Made by a program: the position numbers and the translations under genes. Source: Candidatus Loosdrechtia aerotolerans (GTDB taxonomy: Bacteria > Planctomycetota > Brocadiia > Brocadiales > Brocadiaceae). Taken from it: a DNA stretch of 40,403 nt. A model generated the notes under the pieces. The model did no database searches and was not told where the DNA came from. It saw only the letters and a list, made by a program, of their open reading frames with translations. The stretch covers positions 1-40,403 of the forward strand of contig SOER01000031.1 of assembly GCA_021646405.1 (NCBI GenBank), in the 5' to 3' direction. Shown here piece by piece: positions 3,288 through 18,473 of this stretch. The number at the start of each line of letters is the position of its first letter. Position 1 is the stretch's first letter.

Positions 3288-3498
3288 TGTGAATTAAACA
3301 CCCTCCATCCTAAAATAACCATCAATGACGTTATTTACCACATAAATATTTTTCCTCTGTGTTTTATTATCTTTCCATCAGGAGAACCTTCAGCATTGAA
3401 AATGTGGTTGACATTAATTTTATAAACTTGTAAAATGCCATTTTTGTAATAATAGATACTCTTCATACAAATAGTTACAATAATTATAGAAGTGAAGT

Positions 3499-3879
3499 AT
3501 GTACATTGGGATTGACATTATAGAAATAAAGCGTATTGAAAAATTATTCTCTTCTCATGAAAGTTTTTTAAAGAAAATTTACACAGAAAAAGAGATCGAA
3601 TACTGTAAGCCTAAAAAAAATAAGTATCAACATTTCGCCGTTCGTTTTGCTGCAAAAGAAGCTGTTTTTAAAGCCTTAGGTACTGGCTGGATTGGTACAA
3701 TGAAATGGACGGATATTGAATTGCTCAATGATGAGCTTGGTAAACCATATGTACATCTCTACGGGAGTGTAAAAGAATTAGCAGATAAGAAAAATATTCA
3801 TACCATTCCCGTATCGGTATCTCATTGTCAGGAGTATGCCATTGCTCAGGTTTTACTGATACCAAAGTCAGTAATTTAG
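3499..3879 (+). CDS. acpS: Holo-[acyl-carrier-protein] synthase
   Basis: Transfers the 4'-phosphopantetheine arm from coenzyme A to the serine of acyl carrier protein, activating it for fatty acid or polyketide synthesis. At 126 residues it has the normal family length. The two Mg-binding signatures are visible: GIDIIEI with Asp6 at the N-terminus, and FAAKEAVFKALG with Glu54. The C-terminal SVSH segment of the beta core is also present. The ATG at 3499 is the natural start because the signature begins at residue 4. It lies 96 bases before a B12-type radical SAM gene and about 1.8 kb before two ketosynthase genes, so it plausibly serves a dedicated acyl carrier protein, although no carrier protein gene is in the window. 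Confidence 0.93.
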   Translation: MYIGIDIIEIKRIEKLFSSHESFLKKIYTEKEIEYCKPKKNKYQHFAVRFAAKEAVFKALGTGWIGTMKWTDIELLNDELGKPYVHLYGSVKELADKKNIHTIPVSVSHCQEYAIAQVLLIPKSVI

Positions 3880-17243: not shown

Positions 17244-17271
17244 TTGAAAAATTGACATTTCGTGATATAAT
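17244..17271 (+). promoter_or_regulatory. Promoter of the structured RNA
   Basis: TTGAAA (17244-17249) and a consensus TATAAT (17266-17271) are separated by 16 bases. Transcription would start at about 17278, exactly where the closing stem of the predicted RNA begins. An alternative -35, TTGACA at 17252-17257, pairs with a weaker TATGGA (17275-17280) at 17 bases. Confidence 0.65.
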
Positions 17272-17277
17272 ATGTAT

Positions 17278-17580
17278 GGAGACTGAGGATAGGTGTGTGG
17301 GGTTGAAGGTTCCCCAAGGTATAGGTTGGCGATACGACCTGCCTCGAAGTACCAGAAAACACCTATCCTCAGCTCCTGACATACAGCCCCTTAAAAGACA
17401 AAAGCCATGTCTGGGTATGTAGGGCCAGTGGTAGCAGAGCAGGTTGTATATATTGTCCTGCATGAAGAATGCAGGGTAGGATATGCAGGTTGTATATGCG
17501 CAAATGACCCTACAGCCCAGGCATGGCTATTAATAAACAGCTCGGTATATGTCTTTTGGACATATACCGGGCTGTTTTTA
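17278..17580 (+). ncRNA. Candidate free-standing structured RNA, unknown class
   Basis: About 300 bases with no convincing ORF but exceptional pairing. GGAG-A-CTGAGGATAGGTGT (17278-17296) pairs with ACACCTATCCTCAG-CTCC (17359-17376), giving 18 bp with one bulged A. Inside are GGGG/CCCC (17299-17302 and 17312-17315), GGTA/TACC (17318-17321 and 17350-17353) and AGGT/ACCT (17323-17326 and 17337-17340). A second domain is closed by GCCATG/CATGGC (17404-17409 and 17522-17527), CTGGG/CCCAG (17411-17415 and 17516-17520) and GTAGGG/CCCTAC (17419-17424 and 17508-17513). Within it CCTGC (17457-17461) can pair with GCAGG at 17439 or in a 7-bp hairpin with ATGCAGG (17469-17475), and GCAGGTTGTATAT occurs twice (17439 and 17485). 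A consensus promoter precedes it and a strong terminator ends it. The next gene is on the other strand, so it is not an mRNA leader. I see no signature of tmRNA, RNase P, SRP or 6S RNA. Confidence 0.72.
17536..17580 (+). terminator. Intrinsic terminator of the structured RNA
   Basis: AACAGC-T-CGGTATATGTC (17536-17553) pairs with GACATATACCG-G-GCTGTT (17559-17576) around a TTTTG loop: 18 bp with one U-G pair, followed by a T-run (17575-17579). It is one of the strongest hairpins in the window. Confidence 0.88.
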
Positions 17581-17670
17581 TTATTAGACGTGAGTACAAG
17601 TGTTCCGCCGGGATATTTCAATTGTCGTCAAGAAGCGGTTCATGTAGGAGTACGGCGGAACGGATACCGC
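17581..17670. other. Spacer with inverted TTCCGCCG/CGGCGGAA
   Basis: Between the terminator and the next interspersed repeat, GTTCCGCCG near 17602 and CGGCGGAAC near 17653 form a wide inverted repeat around about 42 bases. No coding potential is seen. Confidence 0.35.
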
Positions 17671-17795
17671 ACTTTTTCCTGATCCTCACACAAAGATACA
17701 GAGACACAAAGAAATATGATATGTTCCCATTTACGTATGCTTGTATTCTATCCTTCATCATTCTTTATTCTTTGTATCTCTGTGTCTTTGTGTAA
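17671..17795. repeat. Interspersed inverted repeat, copy 2
   Basis: It starts CCTGATCCTCACACAAAG and ends TCTGTGTCTTTGTGTAA. Between the arms lies CATTCTTTATTC, shared with copy 1 (510-650). The inverted arms (CACAAAGA... and ...TCTTTGTG) would fold into a long stem. It abuts the 3' end of the DinB-like gene. Confidence 0.65.
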
Positions 17796-17861: not shown

Positions 17862-18473
17862 TTATTGGGTATCAGGCCGCTCTGTGCACGGATTATCACC
17901 TGGTCCTGGTAACGGTGCCTTTGCGCCACCTGTAGATTCTCCGGCAATAAGCCTGTCTATAGACGGGTAAGGATATATTGTCTTTGCGTTGTATTGCATG
18001 AGACCACCGGTATCGGCTGATGGACCATATGTGCTGTAAATCTCCCTCCCCAGTATGCGTAGCATTATTGTCAATTGCCCGCGGTGATGTGATGAGTGAG
18101 CAATCCTTCTCGTCATGACCCATGTTCGCAGCCGTCTGACGTCAAAGAAGGGCACCTCTTCTTCCCACCAGGCCTTATTCTTAGCCTGTAGTACTTCGAG
18201 GCGTTTTCCGGAATCTTCAGCATATTGCTTTATAAACTCCAGACGGGTTTCCTGCTGTGGTAGCGGTGGTGCACCAACGTCAATTCCCAACATATTACGG
18301 AACCAAAGATCTTCGCTGATGCACTGGTGTACCATATGTTCTAGAGCATTTCTGCCTCGTTTGTCACCTGGGAGGGGACGTATTTGCAGGTCCTCATCCT
18401 TGAACATACTCCAGGCACTTAGTATCTTAACCCGTTCGGTGCCATACGTTTCAATTAAAAAATCATATTCCAT
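17862..18473 (-). CDS. DinB-fold (DinB/YfiT-like) protein
   Basis: A 203-residue helical protein of the DinB superfamily. The four-helix-bundle metal site is suggested by ALEHMVHQC at about 44-52 and RIAHSSHHRGQL at about 130-141, the second being the usual C-terminal histidine motif of the family. Members are often thiol-dependent metalloenzymes or stress proteins, but the reaction here cannot be read. The C-terminal 30 residues (GESTGGAKAPLPGPGDN) are Gly/Pro-rich and probably disordered. ATG 18473 follows GGGAGAAC. It is a single gene, convergent with the structured RNA. Confidence 0.85.
   Translation of the reverse strand: MEYDFLIETYGTERVKILSAWSMFKDEDLQIRPLPGDKRGRNALEHMVHQCISEDLWFRNMLGIDVGAPPLPQQETRLEFIKQYAEDSGKRLEVLQAKNKAWWEEEVPFFDVRRLRTWVMTRRIAHSSHHRGQLTIMLRILGREIYSTYGPSADTGGLMQYNAKTIYPYPSIDRLIAGESTGGAKAPLPGPGDNPCTERPDTQ

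Follow-up and report, generated by a model that had tools for sequence, protein, structure and literature searches.

Introduction

Structured RNAs of bacteria include dual-function small RNAs with a short ORF, such as SgrS, and large orphan RNAs, such as OLE, GOLLD and ROOL. Other RNAs carry boxA: boxA-bound NusB-S10 has been proposed to shield untranslated RNA from Rho and to aid rRNA maturation (PMC4807359), and a boxA likewise serves ahead of CRISPR arrays (PMC7862264). In the Kuenenia transcriptome paper, reads from 53 structural RNA genes were taken out and intergenic RNAs go unmentioned (PMC7438415), and in the open-licence literature we found no description of an RNA such as the one reported here, nor of any anammox regulatory RNA.

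Here we analyze a 40,403-nucleotide stretch of DNA from Candidatus Loosdrechtia aerotolerans (hereafter the window), whose genome encodes hydrazine synthase alpha and is therefore of the anammox type. Part of the window appears to encode an RNA of about 300 bases with its own start and stop signals. An earlier note, made from the sequence of this stretch, had suggested a new class of free-standing structured RNA; the lack of an Rfam match and covariation in homologues, both checks that the note had proposed, uphold that suggestion. The window copy is atypical for its family, which was invisible from its sequence alone.

Results

The putative transcription unit lies on the forward strand and begins with a promoter (17244-17271) made up of TTGAAA (17244-17249), a 16-nt spacer with an extended -10 TGA at its end, and TATAAT (17266-17271). 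The number of promoter matches, 7 against 5.7 expected, is unremarkable by itself; the -10, the extended TG and the 6-nt gap to the first helix are the same in most relatives, promoter sequence and spacing both having been kept. Domain 1 follows, a junction of helices P1, P2 and P3 with a T-loop-like hairpin. P1 is the 18-bp closing stem that the earlier note had described: in the predicted fold GGAG-A-CTGAGGATAGGTGT (17278-17296) pairs with ACACCTATCCTCAGCTCC (17359-17376, placed also by the model from relatives) as 4+14 pairs with one bulged A. P2 is the hairpin TGGGG-TTGAAGGTT-CCCCA, with a 9-nt T-loop-like loop (17298-17316), and P3 is a predicted hairpin, GGTAT...GTACC (17318-17353), whose position is kept in relatives and whose paired letters differ. 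Beyond an unpaired linker (17377-17402), the site of boxA in typical members, lies a second domain predicted to fold as a long imperfect hairpin (17403-17528). The three stacked helices proposed to close it were all located with their complements (GCCATG 17404/CATGGC 17522; CTGGG/CCCAG; GTAGGG 17419/CCCTAC 17508). The unit ends at an intrinsic terminator (17535-17580), which the note had pointed out, with a T run and a 20-pair stem (17535-17577 in all) whose sequence, AGCYCGGTATAT, is common to the family. The predicted minimum free energy of the window RNA is -152.9 kcal/mol, compared with -89.9 +/- 5.1 for dinucleotide shuffles (z = -12.5; 0/200), and z is -10.7 with the terminator left out.

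That the stretch holds no ORF worth the name was right in part: short ORFs do overlap the RNA (for example 91 aa at 17407-17682), but none of those in the window is common to relatives, whose sequence differs at that place. Nor is there a same-strand gene downstream, the first gene encoding a DinB-family protein on the opposite strand (17862-18473). Just 3' of the terminator is a 26-nt inverted repeat, ACACAAAGATACAGAGACACAAAGAA, with arms at 17688-17713 and 17768-17793, 54 nt apart.

Comparison with catalogued RNAs was negative throughout. Rfam 15 gave no match at the gathering threshold across the whole window; in the RNA region at E up to 10 it gave only miRNA-like matches on the terminator and other spurious matches far below threshold, and in the relatives' loci at E up to 0.1 none that was credible. 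ARAGORN found no tRNA or tmRNA in the window. Two classes whose signatures the note had called absent could be excluded directly: tmRNA, whose model is unmatched in the window and which is encoded elsewhere in all five genomes tested; and 6S RNA, which is encoded elsewhere in three genomes (G010, G012 and G020) and matches no copy of this RNA, and which was not found in the window's own genome (G000). The size and free-standing layout would suit a divergent housekeeping RNA (tmRNA, 6S, RNase P or SRP), but in addition to these separate tmRNA and 6S genes there are several copies of this RNA per genome, and Rfam matched none of the window and nearby loci scanned; such an origin, already largely refuted for tmRNA and 6S, is barely conceivable.

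Searching 59 related genomes by DNA produced matches that reach from the promoter into domain 1, covering its first part. A covariance model built from eight aligned relatives, with the window left out (R1), recovers the window's 5' domain at 33.2 bits (E=1.8e-5 in 63 kb, 9e-4 genome-wide); as this model comes from relatives only, we count its match for the window's membership in the family. A wider model that includes the window (R2, cut-off E=1e-4) finds 51 copies in 75 genomes of the class, placing the RNA in 30 of 33 Brocadiaceae genomes, with a cut copy in a 31st, and in two genomes of a second, Scalindua-type family. The RNA was not found outside Brocadiales among 392 genomes sampled across the phylum, and the named records matched by a DNA pattern scan are Brocadia, Brocadiaceae, unclassified Planctomycetota and Candidatus Scalindua sediminis. 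Judged by these models, the window RNA belongs, as a divergent copy, to an uncatalogued RNA family that nearly all Brocadiaceae carry. We regard the existence and novelty of this Brocadiales family as nearly secure.

Other candidates were rejected. Bacteroidetes and Methanolobus contigs that match the DNA pattern lack domain 1, as does one matching viral contig, and a search for viral contigs with PyrI found nothing. A weak domain-1 match in the window's genome (G000:C61) has neither promoter nor hairpin, and weak matches at L112, L113, L115, L116 and L125 were likewise dismissed on inspection. A link to anammox metabolism was also rejected, because the RNA and the hydrazine synthase gene do not co-vary in occurrence: the RNA is found without an hzsA match in genera g6 and g7, and hzsA without the RNA in f2.

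The window's genome has a second copy of the RNA (L072, G000:C60:67778-67923). A copy in G010 lies on the minus strand at C1:3774411-3774688, with an expected transcript of ~345 nt from GGAAC to the terminator. In the other genome of the window's genus, two near-identical full copies lie 2.7 kb apart (L098, 4001-4105 and 6749-6853, reverse strand), and truncated remnants occur at L090, L106 and L114. At L110, 3' of the match at 1301-1398 on the reverse strand, an RNA remnant is followed by a small ORF, MGHKKLSEYEVPHVTTYTDEEILEELGPAHTCYAINHG, which we take to resemble a peptide natural-product precursor. Several copies per genome at unrelated loci, together with the tandem pair and the remnants, might indicate a dispersed selfish or mobile sequence kept by spread and not by function. 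However, no terminal repeats were seen; promoter, covarying helices and terminator are maintained; and the pyrI locus is common to genera g6, g7, g9 and g11, which argues for vertical maintenance. We consider persistence by spread very unlikely.

Covariation in the homologues is strong, both in P1/P2 and in the long-range helix P4. Across 49 copies, 95.2% of P1 and P2 cells are paired, with a covariation score of 0.524 compared with 0.261 in shuffles, which ignore kinship, and with at most 0.22 when the partner strand is slid; P1 has two-sided changes at all 11 aligned pairs. P3 is kept with differing sequences, at least AGGTGT/ACACCT, GGCATA/TGTGCC and AGATATA/TGTATCT. The P2 hairpin, GGUUNAANGUUCC, is near-invariant over the same 49 copies, and its stem covaries; it appears to fit the T-loop signature UUNRA, from which L072 departs at R. 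P4, which starts a few nucleotides after boxA and takes the form CAGTAGCGA/TCGCTACTG or CAGTAACATT/AATGTTACTG in typical members, is 95.9% paired, with a score of 0.360 against 0.181 in shuffles that again ignore kinship, and 5 of its 10 pairs have changed on both sides.

A typical member is ~270-350 nt long and consists of an extended -10 promoter, domain 1, an rrn-type boxA, P4, P5 (a helix at the SD-like site and the start codon), a mini-ORF and the terminator. The boxA matches GTTCTTTGAAA at 9 or more of 11 positions in 41 of 52 copies, a level that 1.2% of random stretches reach. In five of the same genomes the rRNA leaders have GTTCTTTGG, GTTCTTTGA or GTTCTTTTA at the usual place before 16S, so the motif in the RNA is like the native boxA of these organisms. 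In predicted folds boxA has an openness of 0.47 against an average of 0.41, a difference too slight to be informative. Within the 447 kb examined, the terminator stem AGCCYGRTAT occurs with this RNA only, and the window's terminator conforms to it.

The mini-ORF, identified by script in 35 copies, mostly has 5-9 codons and mostly reads M-R-[EK]-x-x-x-stop, with products such as MREFGK, MREFKQ, MRKLER and MRKVDE. In some copies the SD-like site is complementary to the 16S end over as many as 10 nt (AGGAGGTGAT), but in many the complementarity is close to background. It may be the peptide that matters, in a micropeptide gene or dual-function RNA whose domains control translation through P5 holding the start codon. 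The motif's recurrence supports this, as does its survival in distant copies with different upstream sequence: most of those found by a covariance model of boxA and P4, or domain 2 (R3), still end in a recognisable mini-ORF. But neither the window nor L072 has the mini-ORF, in a few other copies it is disrupted, codons 2-3 also lie in P5, so that RNA pairing may account for their conservation, and a six-residue product with no export signal would be unusual. We think a peptide function unlikely.

The genes downstream of the RNA vary from locus to locus and at many loci are convergent, with PyrI at 14 copies; this variety of neighbours identifies the RNA as free-standing. A distant copy at L171 (reverse complement, ~3350-3800) runs into a gene on the same strand that encodes a split-Soret cytochrome c-like protein, the start of which is of the twin-arginine type, and no terminator is visible there. 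L171 is the sole sign of a cis role and the one exception to the lack of a consistent same-strand downstream gene. A cis-acting leader, whether riboswitch or attenuator, would accommodate L171 and also the placing of start codons in a helix adjoining the terminator. Yet it would have to control downstream genes that are unrelated between loci and often convergent, and nearly all copies are followed by a terminator; we hold it to be quite unlikely.

Upstream of the RNA at the pyrI locus, on the same strand, is a second small RNA candidate of ~76 nt (L003 (-) 1389, L005 (-) 1406, L007 (-) 1375, L008 (-) 1388, L081 (-) 3833 and L082 (+) 1575, positions on the named strand). It has a GAGCCGGAGGTGG stem, two conserved hairpins (TTTTAGGG..CCCTA and CTAGCGCCCCAACGCTGG), a TATAAT-like -10, often a T-rich end, and a predicted MFE of -34 to -38 kcal/mol; in the loci scanned, Rfam did not match it at E 0.1.

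The window copy retains the promoter, domain 1 and the terminator. The rrn-type boxA of typical members is absent from it, as are P4 and a comparable mini-ORF, and its middle is a hairpin of its own, for which neither the DNA search of 59 related genomes nor the domain-2 model gave a homologue. R3 matched neither the RNA-encoding portion of the window nor L072, and L072 likewise lacks boxA, P4 and mini-ORF. Because these two copies have lost all three elements, any function common to all copies should sit in domain 1. The private hairpin bears GCAGGTTGTATAT twice (17439 and 17485), and CCTGC, its possible partner, occurs at 17338 and 17457; the earlier note had read this as a conformational switch. 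The repeats and partners are there, but with the whole second domain confined to the window copy comparative support is absent, and a single long hairpin dominates the predicted ensemble (-155.8 kcal/mol, against an MFE of -152.9, with a near-identical centroid). A switch is hardly credible. The window's DinB gene has close relatives in four other genomes, with no RNA copy reported at those places, so the window's lineage has probably acquired the RNA at this locus.

Discussion

We propose that the window RNA is a diverged copy of an undescribed family of free-standing Brocadiales RNAs, and that typical members of the family work through Nus factors and the ribosome; to this combined reading we assign a probability of roughly 0.4. 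Its mechanistic part, a trans-acting RNA that engages Nus factors and ribosomes, is put forward tentatively. In this mechanism boxA would recruit NusB-S10 and associated factors to the polymerase, as it does in the leaders of rRNA and CRISPR transcripts, allowing a largely untranslated RNA to be completed and folded. Once finished, the RNA would regulate in trans while bound to protein or ribosome; domain 1 would be its chief module for recognition, and the mini-ORF would be where ribosomes engage. Since the window copy is without boxA and mini-ORF, the Nus and ribosome part cannot apply to it; with promoter, domain 1 and terminator only, it could use only the domain-1 part.

We count for this explanation the covariation of P1/P2 and P4, the presence of the RNA across the family, the promoter, boxA, mini-ORF and terminator stem, and the neighbouring genes. 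Against it we count that boxA is barely more open than average, that in many copies SD complementarity hardly rises above background, and that L171 lies in a gene leader. Conservation, covariation, free-standing layout, the boxA sequence, the mini-ORF and absence from Rfam were all observed in comparisons of genomic sequence; from these we infer transcription, Nus-factor binding, translation or ribosome engagement, and action in trans. As a long shot, a stand-alone Brocadiales RNA might sense or titrate ribosome-assembly factors through its NusB-S10 and 30S sites and so control ribosome synthesis in trans, copies of the window type having shed both sites and acting by the T-loop domain alone.

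The family adds a conserved, covarying, free-standing RNA to the anammox-type bacteria, and the occurrence of boxA inside a short independent RNA with a putative ribosome-binding mini-ORF makes a link between small RNAs and the Nus/ribosome machinery testable. It belongs to no described class that we found; "new" applies to the family, the mechanism being our proposal. With 6S RNA it shares a long closing stem and its own promoter, but it has a T-loop-like hairpin junction instead of a large central bubble, and three genomes encode a separate 6S. Dual-function RNAs of the SgrS type are likewise structured, with a short ORF after an SD-like site; here the ORF, mostly of 5-9 codons, ends at the terminator, and no base-pairing target was identified. 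Like OLE, GOLLD and ROOL, it is multi-domain, covarying and lineage-restricted, but it is smaller, has boxA and a mini-ORF, and matches nothing in Rfam by sequence or structure. In the boxA leaders of rRNA operons and CRISPR arrays the likeness lies in boxA itself, the GTTCTTTGAAA of typical members being close to the rRNA-leader boxA of the same genomes and to the CRISPR-leader boxA GTTCTTTAAAA (PMC7862264), and in the long-range helix that follows it; in contrast to those leaders this RNA, whose window copy has no boxA, is short and free-standing, with a terminator of its own in place of rRNA or a repeat array.
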